From contig JAMOQG010000098.1 of assembly GCA_027064135.1 (NCBI GenBank), positions 1 through 40,342 on the forward strand: 40,342 nt of DNA, in the 5' to 3' direction. This DNA comes from Peptostreptococcaceae bacterium (GTDB lineage: Bacteria > Bacillota > Clostridia > Peptostreptococcales > Acidaminobacteraceae). Below the pieces are notes generated by a model that saw only the letters and a list, made by a program, of their open reading frames with translations, had not been told where the DNA came from and ran no database searches. Numbering within the stretch: the first letter of the stretch is position 1; the number at the start of each line of letters is the position of its first letter. This document shows positions 7,935 to 18,163 of the stretch, piece by piece. The translations under genes and the position numbers were made by a program.

Positions 7935-8999
7935 CTATTGAAGGTACTTTGAAGCAAGTAAATCCTTTAACATATTTTCAGAATTTTTGATATCATCTTT
8001 ATTTTTGATAAAAGATTTTTTTAAAGCTTCAGCATATTTTATTGCTAAATTTTTATTTTTTTTAAATCCAACAATATTTTTATTATTAAAATATCTTTCG
8101 CCTTTTTTAGTAATAATTACATTATTTATTTTAATTTCAAATTCTTTTTCCATTTCATATTCCATATCTAATTTAATATATTCATTTAAAACTAAATATA
8201 ATAAATTTGATATATAACTATTTTTAGTCATGAATATAAAAATATTTTCAAAATTATTAATTTTTATAGCATTTAAAATCATTTTAATTTCCATATTCTT
8301 TATAATTATATCTGAAAAAAATTGCTTTAACATGCTTTCTAATTGGTAAATCGTTCTACTATCAGTGAATTTAATAAAAGCTTTTTTATTATGGATTTCA
8401 ATTTTGCCTAAATATTTATCAAATTTAATATCACTATTAATATTAATACTAAAATCAAGAATTTTTAAATTAGTTGTTTCTTCTAAAATATTTTTGAAAA
8501 TAATTATTAAATTTTTCTTTGAAATAGACATAATATCAATATCTAAGATATATTCTTTACATTTTTTTATATACTGTTCTACTAATAAAGTTATATCTGC
8601 ATTTTCAATTTGATTAATAGATTTAAGAACTTCTATACCATTACTGGTAATATTTATTGAAAAAATTTCCATTTCAATAACTTTTTTATTAGCATCTAAT
8701 TTAATATCATATTTTCCATTAATCAATCTTTGTTTCATCAAAGCTCTTAACGCTAAATTCAATTCATTTAAAGAATTAGTAAAAGACACTTTTTTTGTTA
8801 AAAACAACTCTGGATACTCATTATCATTCAAATAATTTAATATTTGTTTAAAAAAATCTGATTTCTTATTATTAACATCAAAAGTAAGTCTATTAGTCAT
8901 TTCATTAATAGAAGTATTCTTTAATTCATAATAAAATTGAAAAGGATTTTCAATAATAATTTTTCTTTCTATAATATTATAACCTGCAACACCAATCAT
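7935..8999 (-). CDS. hypothetical protein, two winged-helix-like segments
   Basis: Unrecognised protein of 354 residues, extremely rich in Ile, Lys and Asn. It has no signal peptide and no clear membrane helix. Two places end in a beta-wing-like signature typical of winged-helix proteins: ITSNGIEVLKSI (near residue 122) and ITKKGERYFNNK (near residue 305). Each follows a short helical block. This suggests an N- and a C-terminal winged-helix module around a divergent middle, which is inference only. AGGAAGTGG precedes the ATG. It lies 15 bases after the ABM-domain gene and is probably cotranscribed with it and the AAA ATPase gene. A role as regulator or adaptor for the ATPase would be speculation. 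Confidence 0.65.
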   Translation of the reverse strand: MIGVAGYNIIERKIIIENPFQFYYELKNTSINEMTNRLTFDVNNKKSDFFKQILNYLNDNEYPELFLTKKVSFTNSLNELNLALRALMKQRLINGKYDIKLDANKKVIEMEIFSINITSNGIEVLKSINQIENADITLLVEQYIKKCKEYILDIDIMSISKKNLIIIFKNILEETTNLKILDFSININSDIKFDKYLGKIEIHNKKAFIKFTDSRTIYQLESMLKQFFSDIIIKNMEIKMILNAIKINNFENIFIFMTKNSYISNLLYLVLNEYIKLDMEYEMEKEFEIKINNVIITKKGERYFNNKNIVGFKKNKNLAIKYAEALKKSFIKNKDDIKNSENMLKDLLASKYLQ

Positions 9000-9323: not shown

Positions 9324-10721
9324 CTAAAATTCTTTTATCATTAGATTCAAAGTAATCAACTTTAAATTTTTAGTAATATTTTCTAATTCTATTAAATTCT
9401 CAGTAAATCCATTTTTAGAAAACAAATAGTAATATGAATTTTCACATGAAATTAAATGAGATCTTTCCTTAAGTTTTTCATAAACATCGATTCCAATTTT
9501 ATCATTTGTATATTTACATTCTGCGAATAGAATATCATCTTCACCTAATCCAACAATATCAATTTCTTCTTGTCTTTTTTTTATTGGATTTGTACCCCAC
9601 CATTTACCTAATTTATAAATAATAAACGGTAATTCCATTTTTTTATTTTTTCTAATTAAATAATCCTTGCATACATCTTCAAATACTAATCCCTGATGTT
9701 CATTAAATTTGTTCTCAATTCTATTCTTATAAATAGACTCTCCAAGTTCTTGTTCAATTGCTGATATATATTTATTTACATAGCGATAATAGAACTTATA
9801 ATAATTATCACTAATTAAATATATAGTTTTTCTAGAATTTTCCTTTTCTGTAATTGGTACTATTTTTTTAATTATTTTTAATTCAATTAAAGATTTAATA
9901 TATATTGAAGTTTTTGACGTTGTTTCTCCAATCTTAGTTGCAATTTCATTTAACTTACTCGCACCATTTGCTACAGCTTCTATTATACTTTTATATACTA
10001 TTGGATTATTCAATTCTTGTTTTAACAATAATTCTGTTTCCAAATACAAATAAGTTGATTTATTATATATTTTGTTCATTATATTCTCATCAAATGATTT
10101 TTTAGCATCAAATTGCAACAGATATTGAGGAACTCCACCTAACACGCTATAAGCTCGCATTTTATCTTCATTTTCATAATTACCGAAAAATTTTATTGCA
10201 TCAAAAAAATCTAATGGTTCTATTAAAAATTGAGCAGTTCTCCGCCCAAATAATGGACTTTTATAAGAAAGCACTTCATTTTCAATAAAACTAATTGATG
10301 ATCCACAAATTATTAAAAATAATTTTGTGTTTATTAAATTATGGTCTATATTATTTTGAAGTATTGATAACATACTCTTATTTGCAGAAACCATATATGG
10401 AAATTCATCTAAAATTAGTACTATTTTCTCTGTTTTAGCTTTTTCTCCAATAAATTTAAATGCAATATCCCATGATTCAAATTTAGACATAAATTCGCTT
10501 AATCCAAAATGCTCTAAAACTAACTTTGAAAATTTTTCAAGTGATAACGCATCATTATGTTCTTCGCTAACATAAAATATTTTATTTTTATCTTTACTAA
10601 ATTCTGTAAGCAATCGTGTTTTTCCAACACGCCTTCTACCATACATAATTACACAATGAAATTTATCTTCAGTATATAATTCATTTAATTTATTTATTTC
10701 ATACTCTCTACCAATAAACAT
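9324..10721 (-). CDS. AAA ATPase with C-terminal DUF234/PD-(D/E)XK-like domain
   Basis: A cytoplasmic ATPase of 465 residues, of the STAND-related 'archaeal ATPase' kind. Walker A is GRRRVGKT (28-35) and Walker B is KIVLILDEFPYM. A winged-helix segment follows (NEIATKIGETTSKTSIYIKS, about residues 250-275). The C-terminal 130 residues carry EEIDIVGLGEDDILFAECK, which fits the D...E-x-K core of restriction-like nucleases seen in DUF234 proteins. AGGAGG precedes the ATG. These genes are common in archaea and anaerobes and often move between genomes; their function is unknown, with defence or toxin-like roles suggested. It is the first of three closely spaced genes. Confidence 0.88.
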   Translation of the reverse strand: MFIGREYEINKLNELYTEDKFHCVIMYGRRRVGKTRLLTEFSKDKNKIFYVSEEHNDALSLEKFSKLVLEHFGLSEFMSKFESWDIAFKFIGEKAKTEKIVLILDEFPYMVSANKSMLSILQNNIDHNLINTKLFLIICGSSISFIENEVLSYKSPLFGRRTAQFLIEPLDFFDAIKFFGNYENEDKMRAYSVLGGVPQYLLQFDAKKSFDENIMNKIYNKSTYLYLETELLLKQELNNPIVYKSIIEAVANGASKLNEIATKIGETTSKTSIYIKSLIELKIIKKIVPITEKENSRKTIYLISDNYYKFYYRYVNKYISAIEQELGESIYKNRIENKFNEHQGLVFEDVCKDYLIRKNKKMELPFIIYKLGKWWGTNPIKKRQEEIDIVGLGEDDILFAECKYTNDKIGIDVYEKLKERSHLISCENSYYYLFSKNGFTENLIELENITKNLKLITLNLMIKEF

Positions 10722-13683: not shown

Positions 13684-13695
13684 TATATAGTGAAA

Positions 13696-13734
13696 AACGA
13701 GGTATCATATCATTAATAGATGCCTCGTTTTTTT
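13696..13734. terminator. bidirectional intrinsic terminator
   Basis: 11-bp stem AACGAGGTATC (13696-13706) with GATGCCTCGTT (13719-13729), one G-U pair and a 12-nt loop. Seven T follow on the plus strand, and five T on the minus strand just after the pucR-like gene. Confidence 0.85.
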
Positions 13735-13736
13735 AT

Positions 13737-14876
13737 TTATTTCGTCAATTTTTCACTTCTAATTGCAATTGATAATTGCTCATAAAAATCACCGTTTTTA
13801 GCTTTTAATATCTTTTCAAGATTTTTTATTCTATATCTAATTGTATTTTTATGTTGAAACATTTTTGAAGCTGTTTTACTAATATCCCCATTATTTTTAA
13901 TATAAATCCTTGCAGTTTCTAAAAGCTTCCCATTATCATAATTTTTTATTTTAATTAAAATTTCACTTGCAAACTGTTTTAACCATTTATCGTTTTTATA
14001 TGGTAAAAGTATTTTATAAATTCCTATATTCTCATAAGACTCTTCATTAAGATTTAATAGTTCACTTGTTTCCATAGCATATATACTTTCTTTAATTGAA
14101 ATATCCAATTGAGTTAAACATTTAAAAAATCTACTCTTTCCAATATAATAATCTTTTTTATCGATGCTTAATTGATTAAAAATATAATTTAAGTCAATTG
14201 TTACGTCCCTTTCTGTTATTTTTTCAAAAGTTATGATAATCATTAAACCTTCTAAATATTTAAAAACACTATGATGAATAGATCTTGATCTACTTCTATG
14301 AAATCTTTCAGATAATTTAAGAGTATTTTCATCAGATAAATATTTTCTTTCCTTTAAATAAATAACCATATACTCAGAAAAAAAATTAGGATTTAATTCA
14401 TAAGCAAGTTCTTTTACAATATTATCTTTTAAATCATTTTCAAATAATATTTTAATCTTTGAAGATATTATTTCCATTCTACTTCTTGATTGCATTCCAG
14501 ATAATAAATCTTCAATTATATCTTCAAAATAAACATTCTCTTCAAACATAAAAATTGGAAGTTTTTTCTTATTAGCTAATTCAATAATGTTTTCTGGTAA
14601 TTTTTTATAAAATATTTTTTTAATTGCTAAAGCAGAAATATCGCAAATAATTAAATCTTTAATTACTTCTAATAATTTCCTCTCATCATCTCTTATTGAA
14701 GTGAATGTTGTTATAACAAAATCCCCAATGGAAAAATTATCAATTACTCCTTCTACTATTTCATGATCTAAAATTCCTATTTTATCAATCATTTTACTTA
14801 GCCCATCTTTACCTGCAACTAATTCAAGATGTTTTAAATGTTTAATTTGCATAGCATCTGAAACTGAAATCGACAT
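13737..14876 (-). CDS. PucR-family transcriptional regulator
   Basis: Regulator of about 379 residues. The N-terminal PucR domain (1-125) contains VSDAMQIKHLKHLELVAG and a later FVITTFTSIRDDERK. A divergent middle follows, and the last 60 residues are a PucR-type helix-turn-helix (GDISKTASKMFQHKNTIRYR). The frame opens at a TTG (14903), but AGAGGTGG sits just before the ATG at 14874-14876, which is the better start. It is transcribed away from the OCD/PLP operon across a 124-bp region that holds a long palindrome. PucR proteins usually activate nearby catabolic genes for purines, amino acids or amines, so the divergent operon is the likely target. Confidence 0.9.
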   Translation of the reverse strand: MSISVSDAMQIKHLKHLELVAGKDGLSKMIDKIGILDHEIVEGVIDNFSIGDFVITTFTSIRDDERKLLEVIKDLIICDISALAIKKIFYKKLPENIIELANKKKLPIFMFEENVYFEDIIEDLLSGMQSRSRMEIISSKIKILFENDLKDNIVKELAYELNPNFFSEYMVIYLKERKYLSDENTLKLSERFHRSRSRSIHHSVFKYLEGLMIIITFEKITERDVTIDLNYIFNQLSIDKKDYYIGKSRFFKCLTQLDISIKESIYAMETSELLNLNEESYENIGIYKILLPYKNDKWLKQFASEILIKIKNYDNGKLLETARIYIKNNGDISKTASKMFQHKNTIRYRIKNLEKILKAKNGDFYEQLSIAIRSEKLTK

Positions 14877-14938
14877 ATTACCACCTCTTTGTATTTTGTA
14901 CAATAATAATATACTATTTTCTCGTTTTACACAAAGAC

Positions 14939-14960
14939 ATTATCTGAATTTTCAGATAAT
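14939..14960. promoter_or_regulatory. palindromic operator candidate between pucR-like gene and operon
   Basis: Perfect 10-bp arms ATTATCTGAA (14939-14948) and TTCAGATAAT (14951-14960) around TT, 40 bases before the first gene of the operon and 63 bases from the regulator start. The position suits autoregulation and control of the divergent operon. That PucR binds here is inferred. Confidence 0.55.
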
Positions 14961-15000
14961 ATATAAATATAGAAAAGCAGGTTAAAATTGGAGGTATAAA

Positions 15001-16014
15001 ATGTTAGATATTAAAGTATTAAATCAGGAAGTACTTAAAGAAACACTTGAAATGAAAGATGTTATTTTAGCTGTTGAAAAAGCATATATTTTAAAAGCTC
15101 AAAACAGAACAGAACTTTTCCCAATGGTTTTTCATGAATTTAACCCTGGCGTTGCAGATATGGATATTAAATCAGGCCATTTAAAAGATGAAAGTATATT
15201 CGGTCTAAAATTAGTTTCATGGTTTGGAGAAAACAAAGAAAAAAATTTACCATTATTATTTGGTACAACTCTTATTTTTGATGATAAAACTGGTATGCCT
15301 CTAGCACTATTAAATGCTGATTATATTACTGGGATGCGTACTGGTGCAGCTGGTGCAATTGGTGCAAAATATTTAGCAAAGAAAAATTCTAAATCCTTAT
15401 TAATGGTTGGTACAGGTCATGTTGCGCAATTTGAAATTCTTGCTACATTAATTGCTGTTCCATCAATTGAAAAAGTTAGAGTTTATAATCCAAGATCTGA
15501 AGAAAGAACTGCTACATATGCTAGCAAAATAAAAAATATTTTAAAAAATTCGTTTAATTTTGAAAGTGATGTTGAATTTGAAGCTGTAAGAGATATAAAA
15601 GATGCTGTATCGAACAGTGATATTATTATTACTGCTACTCCTTCAAGGGAACCTATGATTTTAAAAGATTGGGTTAAACCAGGAACACATTTTAGTTGCG
15701 TTGGTTCAGATATGGAAGGTAAACAAGAAATTGATGAAAATATATTCTTAGATGCAAAAGTAGTTGTAGACGATATTACTCAAGCAGTAAATGTTGGAGA
15801 AACTGAGACTGCAATTAAAAAGAATATTATAAAAGAATCCGATTTATTAGGTGAAATGGGAGAAATAATTTTAGGTAATATTAAAGGACGTACATCAGAT
15901 AATGATATTACTATTTTTGATTCAACTGGTATTGCTCTTCAGGATTTAATTACTTCAAAACTTGCTCTTGATCTTGCTGAGAAAAAGAATTTAGGAATTT
16001 CAATTAAACTATAA
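15001..16014 (+). CDS. ornithine cyclodeaminase/mu-crystallin family dehydrogenase
   Basis: NAD(P)-dependent imine/amino-acid reductase or cyclodeaminase of 337 residues. Family landmarks are the catalytic-region lysine in FGLKLV (K70), GMRTGAAGA (111-119), Rossmann loop VGTGHVAQ (136-143), CVGSDMEGKQE with the catalytic-type Asp (D237) and DSTGIALQD (307-315). GGAGG precedes the ATG. The family includes ornithine cyclodeaminase, alanine dehydrogenase, ketimine reductase and the EutC protein of ectoine-utilisation clusters, so the substrate cannot be named from sequence. It is the first gene of a three-gene operon with two PLP enzymes, nine bases before the next start. Confidence 0.9.
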   Translation: MLDIKVLNQEVLKETLEMKDVILAVEKAYILKAQNRTELFPMVFHEFNPGVADMDIKSGHLKDESIFGLKLVSWFGENKEKNLPLLFGTTLIFDDKTGMPLALLNADYITGMRTGAAGAIGAKYLAKKNSKSLLMVGTGHVAQFEILATLIAVPSIEKVRVYNPRSEERTATYASKIKNILKNSFNFESDVEFEAVRDIKDAVSNSDIIITATPSREPMILKDWVKPGTHFSCVGSDMEGKQEIDENIFLDAKVVVDDITQAVNVGETETAIKKNIIKESDLLGEMGEIILGNIKGRTSDNDITIFDSTGIALQDLITSKLALDLAEKKNLGISIKL

Positions 16015-16023
16015 GGAGGATTC

Positions 16024-17157
16024 ATGAAAATAAAAGATTTTGGTGTTGAAATATGGATGAATTTATATGAAAACAATTGTAAATATAATTTAGCTGAAAC
16101 ATGTGTAGATTCACTACATGTTAATGAATTACTAAATTTAACAAATAATAAAGATGAAATAATTGAAAACATTTTGAAAATGCAATTAAATTATGGCGCT
16201 ATAGAAGGTTCAAACCGACTTAAAAAAGCAGTTTCATCATTATTTAAAACAGTTGATATAAATCAAATCACAATTACTCATGGAGCTTCAGGTGCTAATG
16301 CACTTGCTATGTTTGCTTTAGTTGAACCAGGTGATGAAATAATTTCAGTTCTTCCGACTTATCAACAACATTATTCAATACCTGAAGCATATGGAGCAAC
16401 TGTTAAAATACTTAATCTTAAAGCTGAGGATAATTTTTTACCTGATTTAAATGAATTAAAAAAACTTACTTCTGATAAAACAAAACTTATATGTATTAAT
16501 AATCCAAATAATCCAACAGGAGCTTTAATTGATGAAGAATTGTTAAAAGAAATAGTTGAAATAGCAAAATCATGCAATGCTTATGTATTAAGTGATGAAG
16601 CCTATAGGGGATTAGATCATACTGGAAGTGGATTTACTACTTCAATTATTGATCTTTATGAAAAAGGAATTAGTAGCGGTAGTGTTTCAAAAACTTTTTC
16701 ACTTGCAGGACTTCGAATTGGTTGGTTAGTTGGAAATGAAGATTTTATAGGACTTGTTAATAGAAGAAGAGATTATACAATAATAAGTTGCGCAAAAATA
16801 GATGATTATCTTGCTTCTATTGCACTTGAACATAAAGATCAAATTATTAAAAGAAATCATAAAATCGTACGTCGAAATATTGAAATATTAGATAACTGGG
16901 TAATGAATGAAGATAAAATTTCATATGTTAAACCTAAATCTGGAACAACAGCCTTTTTAAAATATGATTTAAATATTAATTCTGAAACTTTTTGTATTAA
17001 ATTACTTGAGGAAAAAGGTGTTATGATTGTACCTGGAAAAGCACTTGATATGGAAGGATATTTAAGAATTGGATATGCATTTGATCCAAATGCTTTAAAA
17101 ATAGGACTTGAAAAAATATCCGAATTTCTTCATTCATATGGTGATAATAATGCTTAA
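16024..17157 (+). CDS. fold-type I PLP aminotransferase, capreomycidine-synthase-like
   Basis: PLP enzyme of 377 residues (aminotransferase class I/II). Motifs seen: YGAIEGSNRLKKAV (58-71), NNPNNPTG (159-166), SDEAY with the pyridine-binding Asp (D191), and SVSKTFSLAGLRIGW with Schiff-base Lys K223 and phosphate-binding Arg R231. The N-terminus (VEIWMNLYENNCKYNLAETC) resembles the subgroup often annotated capreomycidine synthase-like, some members of which catalyse beta-elimination or replacement rather than transamination; this comparison is from memory. AAGGAGG lies just before the ATG. It is the middle gene of the operon and overlaps the next gene by eight bases. The true reaction is unknown. 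Confidence 0.88.
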   Translation: MKIKDFGVEIWMNLYENNCKYNLAETCVDSLHVNELLNLTNNKDEIIENILKMQLNYGAIEGSNRLKKAVSSLFKTVDINQITITHGASGANALAMFALVEPGDEIISVLPTYQQHYSIPEAYGATVKILNLKAEDNFLPDLNELKKLTSDKTKLICINNPNNPTGALIDEELLKEIVEIAKSCNAYVLSDEAYRGLDHTGSGFTTSIIDLYEKGISSGSVSKTFSLAGLRIGWLVGNEDFIGLVNRRRDYTIISCAKIDDYLASIALEHKDQIIKRNHKIVRRNIEILDNWVMNEDKISYVKPKSGTTAFLKYDLNINSETFCIKLLEEKGVMIVPGKALDMEGYLRIGYAFDPNALKIGLEKISEFLHSYGDNNA

Positions 17158-18115
17158 TGATAAATTAATTATTGAAACTGCAGAACTGATTGGTGAGTAT
17201 ATAAACCATCCACCACTCGAAAAATCAATATATTTAAGTACTGAGAGAAGAAATGTATACTTAAAAAATGAAGGTTTACAATATACAAAAAGCTTTAAAA
17301 TGAGAGGTGCTTTCAGTAAAATATTAAGACTTACTAAAGAAGAAAAAAAACGCGGTATTGTTGCAATTTCATCTGGTAATCATGGTGTTGCCGTAAGTTA
17401 TGTTTGTAAAATTTTAAATATTGAAAATGTTTTAATTTTCATTCCAAAAAATACACCAAACTCTAAAATTGAGCGAATTAAATATTTTGGAGCAAAATTA
17501 ATAATTGATGGTGATACATATGATGATGCTCATTCAATTGGAATGAACTATGTAAAAAAACACAATATGATATTTGTAGATGCATATTATGATGATCCAT
17601 ATATTTATGCTGGACAAGGCACAATAGGACTAGAAATACTAAATGAAAACAAAAATATTAATTCTATTTTAGTTCCAATAGGCGGTGGAGGTCTTATCAC
17701 TGGAATTGCAACTATTATAAAATCAATTAATCCTAATATTAAAATTATAGGTGTTCAAACAGAAGCATGTCCTGCCATGAAAGCTGCTTTGAATGACAAT
17801 ACACATTATATCGAATATCCATCAGATGATTCAATATGCGATGCTTTAATTGGTGGCGTTGGAAAATTAGCATTTGAAAAAGCTTCAACTTTAATTGATG
17901 ATATTTTGATTGTAAAAGAAACAACTATTAGAAAAGCCACTAATCATATGATTACAAAAGAAAAATATATATCTGAACCTTCTAGTTGCGTAGTAATAGC
18001 CGCTTTAATGGACTATGATGATTATGATTTCGGAAAAAATGTCGTAACTGTAATGTCAGGAAGCAATATAAATGAGAATTTAATGTTAGATATTTTAAAT
18101 GAATACTCAAAATAA
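17150..18115 (+). CDS. threonine/serine dehydratase family PLP enzyme
   Basis: Fold-type II PLP enzyme of about 321 residues (threonine dehydratase/serine racemase family). The Schiff-base lysine is in YTKSFKMRGAF (K50 from the chosen start). SSGNHGVA (74-81) binds the substrate and PIGGGGLITGI the PLP phosphate. There is no ACT regulatory domain, so it resembles catabolic or racemase types. The frame is open from 17108, but ATG 17150, which overlaps the preceding stop (ATGCTTAA), suits translational coupling better. The family includes EutB of ectoine clusters and hydroxyaspartate dehydratases. With the OCD-like and aminotransferase-like genes it suggests one pathway for a hydroxy- or diamino-acid. 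Confidence 0.88.
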   Translation: MLNDKLIIETAELIGEYINHPPLEKSIYLSTERRNVYLKNEGLQYTKSFKMRGAFSKILRLTKEEKKRGIVAISSGNHGVAVSYVCKILNIENVLIFIPKNTPNSKIERIKYFGAKLIIDGDTYDDAHSIGMNYVKKHNMIFVDAYYDDPYIYAGQGTIGLEILNENKNINSILVPIGGGGLITGIATIIKSINPNIKIIGVQTEACPAMKAALNDNTHYIEYPSDDSICDALIGGVGKLAFEKASTLIDDILIVKETTIRKATNHMITKEKYISEPSSCVVIAALMDYDDYDFGKNVVTVMSGSNINENLMLDILNEYSK

Positions 18116-18117
18116 TT

Positions 18118-18163
18118 ATAAAAGTAAAAGAATATATCAATCGATATATTCTTTTACTTTTAT
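18118..18163. terminator. bidirectional terminator hairpin
   Basis: Perfect 21-bp A/T-rich arms (18118-18138 and 18143-18163) with a 4-nt loop, containing AGTAAAAGAATATATC and its complement. It lies between the convergent dehydratase and vWA genes. Confidence 0.75.

Follow-up and report, generated by a model that had tools for sequence, protein, structure and literature searches.

The locus described here occupies positions 13737-18115 of a 40,342-nucleotide stretch of DNA from the Peptostreptococcaceae bacterium assembly GCA_027064135.1 (contig JAMOQG010000098.1, positions 1-40,342, forward strand; hereafter the window). A minus-strand gene for a PucR-family regulator is opposed to a plus-strand operon of three enzymes: an ornithine cyclodeaminase (OCD)/mu-crystallin-family enzyme, a fold-type I pyridoxal 5′-phosphate (PLP) enzyme of the PRK07324 family (AT) and a fold-type II, threonine-dehydratase-like PLP enzyme (TD). 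We consider it about evenly balanced whether the three act in a single pathway that breaks down or detoxifies a guanidine-like amino acid, most likely an arginine-like (guanidino) one. AT-OCD and OCD-TD gene sets occur under guanidine-IV-type RNAs and AT-OCD-TD occurs under PucR, for which the simplest explanation is a single pathway with an inducer of guanidine-like shape. The gene content, the operon limits, the co-conservation of the genes and the association with RNA in relatives are observed directly.

Co-conservation of the trio and identity of AT

A sequence-only reading of this DNA had placed a PucR gene opposite an OCD-PLP-PLP operon, and this layout is confirmed: the open reading frames (ORFs) lie where it put them, and Pfam recognizes PucR and HTH_30 in the regulator and OCD_Mu_crystall, Aminotran_1_2 and PALP in the three enzymes (Table 1). 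Genome-neighbourhood analysis, the check it had proposed, finds the genes co-conserved (genome counts throughout ignore kinship among genomes). OCD loci were gathered regardless of AT, as the best 80 named loci of 334, and 77 of them have a countable OCD ORF (L105, L114 and L144 do not). AT is adjacent in 53 of the 77, with TD in 20, PucR in 15, the trio in 13 and the trio plus PucR in 10, while 17 have neither AT nor TD, partly owing to ORF calls or the 45% identity limit. By tblastn, an AT match of at least 40% is found in 65 of the 80 named loci. Acidaminobacter, Tepidibacter, Emergencia, Brevibacillus, Enterococcus and a Dethiosulfovibrio are represented among the OCD loci. A second set comprised 38 AT genes of at least 45% identity from related genomes, gathered regardless of OCD; here OCD is adjacent on the same strand for 21 and within 5 kb for 23, and TD and PucR are each nearby for 13. 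Because the trio arrangement recurs in other genomes, the gene set goes beyond chance.

AT relatives at 51-59% identity also occur on proteobacterial plasmids, where OCD is adjacent or within about 2 kb in seven of eight annotated AT regions, the Ruegeria region being without it. Four of the eight hold an amino acid ABC or binding protein, one of them annotated Lys/Arg/Orn, and four hold an M20 or AstE-type deacylase; the Sulfitobacter region has in addition a fold-type II PLP gene and an argE-type gene. The window OCD shares 24-30% identity with the three proteobacterial OCDs measured. In a quick tree with flagged long branches, six proteobacterial OCDs form a deep clade of their own and the Sulfitobacter OCD groups with EutC. 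With partners drawn from two other deep OCD clades, the AT-OCD pairing therefore seemingly arose more than once, and AT appears to have been joined with different OCD enzymes on more than one occasion.

AT is the sole member of the trio to score above a curated model. Among the best 25 of its 75 matched NCBIfam models, NF005593 (PRK07324) gives 551.1 bits against a cut-off of 476, followed by GntC NF041364 (332.3 bits, cut-off 415) and the capreomycidine synthase VioD TIGR03947 (255.6 bits, cut-off 390.9). AT is thus neither VioD nor GntC, and the sequence-only label of a "capreomycidine-synthase-like" enzyme gives way to that of a PRK07324 protein. The closest solved structures are 3op7 from Streptococcus suis and GntC 8fft. 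Glu9 of AT is invariant in all 24 rows of the AT alignment, at the position where GntC E9 and OrfR E15 align; in the accessible part of PMC10367076, OrfR E15 is credited with tuning the guanidine.

Guanidine-IV-like RNAs before the operons of relatives

Gd4v, a name met only in PMC9788692 in the literature searched, is a guanidine-IV variant riboswitch that was an orphan in 2022, its ligand then being unknown. According to the portion of that paper available, over half of the Gd4v members precede a transaminase gene, PRK07324 is the commonest domain, and COG2423 (OCD) is found in common operons with PRK07324 under Gd4v. A reading of the leaders at 17 of the named loci brought out a strongly conserved RNA. 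In nine of the 80 named loci (L123, L127, L133, L135, L139, L140, L143, L144 and L151) a Gd4v-like RNA lies directly before full-length AT, with OCD. It consists of two hairpins, the second being a terminator with an extra top hairpin, which matches the description of Gd4v; the term Gd4v-like is set by that description and not by comparison with the published Gd4v alignment.

A model built from these nine RNAs (R1) and searched against 93 sources gave further matches in L148, L137 and L177 (E 1.1e-4 or better), of which L177 is an OCD-AT locus with an interrupted OCD frame and L148 and L137 are OCD-TD loci; L138 and L126 carry, by reading, the same element as L148 and L137. TD stands without an adjacent AT in seven loci. 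An AT match exists in three of these (L083, L110 and L120) and none in L126, L137, L138 and L148, although L138 is a 3.6 kb contig, so that AT could lie past its end. The related RNA precedes all four OCD-TD loci without an AT match, and their TDs fall in the clade of the window TD in a quick tree. Common to the four RNAs are a CCCCGGG loop and a TTAGGGC or CTAGGGC core, and the top part is shorter than that of Gd4v in L148 and L137. A second model, R2, built from these four, recovers eight of the nine Gd4v-like sites and matches in 11 of 148 related genomes: in Fusibacter again, before a GNAT gene, before seven MATE genes (L194 by eye), before a B3/4 gene with a short ORF in between, and at one weak site. 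Two of these sites, before the GNAT gene (L190) and one of the MATE genes (L192), likewise carry the CCCCGGG loop, and the other MATE leaders have, by eye, loops of A/GCCGG type or near it and cores of TTAGGTC or TTAGGCC type. GNAT and MATE are also gene classes downstream of Gd4v. The CCCCGGG-loop RNA could represent an additional ligand variant within the guanidine-IV fold. In an alignment of 17 such RNAs, both sides vary in 30 of 34 pairs, and pairing holds in 93.2% of cells as against at most 53.4% when the alignment is slid, a figure favoured by the fitting of the alignment to the model.

All 15 PucR loci, the ten with trio plus PucR among them, are without an R1 or R2 match, and before the window operon the place of the RNA is taken by the PucR gene. 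Rfam at gathering thresholds, applied to the window and 32 relative loci, gave no guanidine-IV or Gd4v match, and neither did a search at E 0.1 of five loci, of which four were already among those 32; since R1 or R2 sites are present in nine of the 33 relative loci, the Rfam result says nothing against the RNA.

One of the OCD-TD loci continues further: in Streptococcus massiliensis (L126:6885-10141) the guanidine-IV-like RNA, OCD and TD are followed by an AlaX-like protein with similarity to the editing part of AlaRS (tRNA_SAD), perhaps, judging by its sequence, another trans-editing factor beside the module.

Layout of the locus and neighbouring genes

Table 1. Features of the window locus and RNA sites before the operons of relatives.
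Feature	Position	Strand	Evidence
PucR-family regulator, divergent	13737-14876	-	Pfam PucR 79.3 bits, HTH_30 51.9 bits
PucR-OCD gap, 124 bases (ORF calls), with inverted repeat ATTATCTGA-4-TCAGATAAT at 14939-14960	14877-15000		sequence; no Gd4v-like RNA
OCD/mu-crystallin-family enzyme, Firmicutes clade	15001-16014	+	Pfam OCD_Mu_crystall 231.4 bits; quick tree
AT, fold-type I PLP enzyme, PRK07324 family	16024-17157	+	NF005593 551.1 bits (cut-off 476); Pfam Aminotran_1_2
TD, fold-type II threonine-dehydratase-like PLP enzyme	17150-18115	+	Pfam PALP 227.6 bits
Terminator-like bidirectional hairpin, 20-pair stem, at operon end	18119-18162	both	sequence
CCCCGGG-loop RNA sites before OCD-TD	L148:6880-6973, L137:6858-6954, L138:1106-1202, L126:6885-6978

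OCD and AT lie on the same strand with a 9-base gap, and TD likely starts at ATG 17150, overlapping the AT stop, TTG 17108 being only the start of the mechanical ORF. The mechanical PucR ORF spans 13737-14903 from a TTG; by eye, ATG 14876, which is preceded by AGGTGG, is its likely start. Also by eye, a T run accompanies an inverted repeat at about 13694-13732. The inverted repeat of the PucR-OCD gap, perfect over 9 bases, is only partly kept in the nearest relative and is a possible PucR operator. A CodY box at 14947-14961 was dropped, as the window holds two matches against 2.65 expected by chance. Family scans with NCBIfam and Pfam covered the locus, the adjoining ORFs and two upstream ORFs. 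The genes adjoining the locus encode a NapH/FMN-binding-type protein, a GGDEF protein and a VWA-like protein (the last below its cut-off), with no evident link to the trio in these scans, and the two upstream ORFs (7935-8999 and 9324-10721) match no family in them.

The neighbour survey took in 131 (from 55 loci) of 178 operon neighbours in 88 loci. The commonest families are PucR (14), M20 peptidase (11), the DcuC/YfcC-type antiporter (7) and EamA (6), followed by a second aminotransferase, PRK06348 (5), ArgH (4, two from near-identical loci) and PhzF (4). An arginine/ornithine-type antiporter lies near the pair in L076, and a Lys/Arg/Orn-annotated binding protein in one case (L152). Ureohydrolase-like genes occur in four of the 80 loci, as identified by motif scan and by eye and not by profile; two L118 genes considered as arginases have no NCBIfam match at 1e-30 and resemble the EamA-labelled rows. 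Stand-alone B3/4 proteins are found near the OCD-AT pair in three genomes (L041/L082, L095 and L121), those of L095 and L121 sharing 44% identity with a B3/4 protein whose gene follows a guanidine-IV-like RNA (L198).

Other arrangements were also seen. An OCD subclade (L131, L132, L141, L145 and L149) comprises MocR-OCD-PhzF loci without AT or TD. At a second OCD locus of Clostridiaceae bacterium HSG29 (L087:573-2640), a D-cysteate-lyase/ACC-deaminase-like PLP gene, below its cut-off, replaces AT. In a Lachnospiraceae genome (L129:3872-9170), two PuuE/polysaccharide-deacetylase-like genes and ArgH lie immediately 5′ of OCD-AT, and in three genomes (G002:C62, G022:C19 and G016:C4) the contig that bears AT has a second, lower-scoring ArgH copy at a distance of about 11-41 kb.

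Candidate pathway, alternatives and known systems

In the proposed pathway, AT and TD, of fold types I and II, would each form a PLP aldimine with an amino acid, which transamination or beta/gamma-elimination would turn into a 2-imino or 2-oxo acid. Reduction of the resulting C=N with NAD(P)H, or the reverse reaction, would fall to the OCD-family enzyme; OCD would be the shared partner and AT and TD alternative or successive imine makers. A scheme of elimination and imine reduction was already put forward in the sequence-only reading and agrees with the gene content. The Gd4v-like or related RNA of some relatives should switch the operon on, according to published work on these RNAs; in the window, the divergent PucR would replace the RNA, with the substrate or an intermediate as its probable signal. 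The substrate class, the chemistry, the direction of the redox step and the PucR ligand are what we infer from these comparisons. An arginine-like substrate would fit the basic amino acid antiporters, the ArgH and ureohydrolase-like neighbours, Glu9 and the B3/4 proteins, each weak alone; a B3/4 protein that edits canavanyl-tRNA is under guanidine riboswitch control (PMC10018355, available in part). A more specific and rather doubtful version is that the trio degrades the Gd4v ligand or its parent, that PucR senses the same compound and that the CCCCGGG-loop RNA represents a further ligand variant.

Several observations weigh against an arginine-like pathway under such control. In the published work, binding of guanidine by one Gd4v RNA was only weak, and neither arginine nor agmatine caused a change (PMC9788692). 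R1 gave no match in 28 further relative loci, neither R1 nor R2 matches above chance in the window, the PucR-OCD gap included, and the genome of the window is likewise without a match in a search that had no positive control there. For 15 of the 38 AT genes, OCD is more than 5 kb away or absent. The guanidinium-linked T84 and H250 of GntC are not retained in AT, and the N52 position is a tyrosine. ArgH and ureohydrolase neighbours are few, with a ureohydrolase match within 6 kb in two of the 38 AT loci among the matches listed, and a further arginine-type gene was not recognised by NCBIfam or Pfam among the window ORFs scanned. The one ABC binding protein that was scored (L089) agrees better with a cystine model (190.8 bits, cut-off 312) than with the Lys/Arg/Orn model (169 bits, cut-off 256), and stand-alone B3/4 proteins are common generally.

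By curated models none of the three is an ordinary ornithine, aromatic or threonine enzyme, which bears out the sequence-only reading on this point. OCD falls below every cut-off among the 15 NCBIfam models listed, including that of SbnB (TIGR03944, 131 bits, cut-off 326.9), which sets aside SbnA/SbnB, and TD below the cut-offs of the best 25 of 38 matched models, led by TdcB (270 bits, cut-off 453); phylogenies of both are quick trees. It is unlikely that the locus is a plain deamination couple in which AT transfers the amino group of a substrate to pyruvate, OCD releases ammonia as an alanine dehydrogenase of archaeal type, TD is a serine or threonine deaminase, and PucR is an AdeR-like activator. 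The top OCD model is indeed archaeal alanine dehydrogenase (TIGR02371, 278 bits), its structures 1omo and 1vll score best, and PucR has a weak AdeR match (26 bits, cut-off 700), but 278 bits is far under the required 409, so that membership is rejected, OCD sits beside BhcD and not alanine dehydrogenase in the quick tree (97 SH-aLRT; long branches flagged), and the RNA association is left unexplained.

A beta-hydroxy amino acid route as in EutB/EutC or BhcB/BhcD, where TD dehydrates, OCD reduces the imine and AT then transaminates, would account for the TD-OCD loci without an AT match (L126, L137, L138 and L148), for the grouping of OCD with BhcD and for the TD motif SSGNHG, which resembles SSGNHA of BhcB, STGNHG of EutB and SAGNHA of TdcB. 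We regard it as rather improbable in that form: the scores are far under the cut-offs for EutC (TIGR02992, 187 against 472 bits), EutB (TIGR02991 and NF005680, 206 and 234 against 413), BhcD (NF045643, 224 against 500) and BhcB (NF045641, 158 against 550), TD forms its own clade outside those of BhcB and EutB, and BhcA, BhcC and ectoine hydrolase or deacetylase were not found among the window ORFs scanned. The view that the locus lies outside the ectoine pathway thus stands, and beta-hydroxy chemistry may still hold for a hydroxylated arginine-like substrate.

In a further alternative, AT would alpha-transaminate ornithine, lysine or a related compound, and OCD would reduce the cyclic imine so formed (pyrroline- or piperideine-2-carboxylate) to proline or pipecolate. 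This was raised in general terms in PMC9788692 and is consistent with the nearby antiporters for basic amino acids, those of YfcC type among them, and with 6t3e, a pyrroline-2-carboxylate reductase, as a good solved relative of OCD. However, OCD misses the PRK06141 (206.6 bits, cut-off 322) and LhpI (70.5 bits, cut-off 400) models, TD is left without a role and the guanidine-type RNA without a reason, and we hold this route to be quite improbable. Canavanine breakdown with AT as a canavanine gamma-lyase recalls the B3/4 proteins described above, the known editing of canavanyl-tRNA and the GNATs of both RNA regulons, which acetylate canavanine (PMC9788692, available part), but it is highly improbable, as the PLP gene of the R. 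leguminosarum operon, its lyase identity deduced from neighbours in an operon that fits the published canavanine operon, is of Cys/Met type and does not match the window AT at E 1e-3, and the second PLP gene of that operon matches AT over just 117 aa at 25%. AT thus lies outside that lyase family; canavanine could be a substrate by another chemistry.

If the three enzymes do act on one guanidine-like amino acid, they provide a small, testable enzyme set for the pathway of the orphan Gd4v, in which a dehydratase-like TD is added to the AT and OCD already noted. The lineages with a PucR protein in place of the RNA offer an independent way to screen for the inducer and, should PucR sense the Gd4v compound, a second, protein-based route to the ligand of an orphan riboswitch. 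A toxic, arginine-like gut amino acid, if it proved to be the substrate, would extend gut metabolism by a chemical that current annotation conceals behind the labels transaminase, ornithine cyclodeaminase and threonine dehydratase.

The window system resembles several known systems in part. The hydroxyarginine cyclases GntC, VioD and OrfR share with AT the conserved Glu9, the PLP lysine and the carboxylate Arg, whereas AT is below both the GntC and VioD cut-offs and has T84, H250, N52 and the S25/S26 pair replaced. Archaeal alanine dehydrogenase provides the best model and structures for OCD, yet at a score well short of membership. BhcB and BhcD of the beta-hydroxyaspartate cycle likewise combine a fold-type II PLP dehydratase with an OCD-family imine reductase, but differ in score, in clade and in their BhcA and BhcC partners. 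EutB and EutC of hydroxyectoine use are the same superfamily pair, and a deacylase is often near in the window-type relatives; the ectoine transporter, hydrolase and deacetylase genes of the Sinorhizobium cluster were, in contrast, not recognised among the window ORFs scanned. The Gd4v regulon differs in that the window has a PucR protein, no RNA and a third enzyme, TD, neither TD nor PucR being mentioned in the available part of PMC9788692. The sequence-only reading had regarded the pathway as undescribed; this holds for the PucR/TD form, which was not found described in the literature searched, and not for the AT-OCD pair, in print as the main cargo of Gd4v. It is with this regulon that the window shares a PRK07324 AT above its cut-off, an OCD in the same operon and relatives that carry the Gd4v-like RNA.

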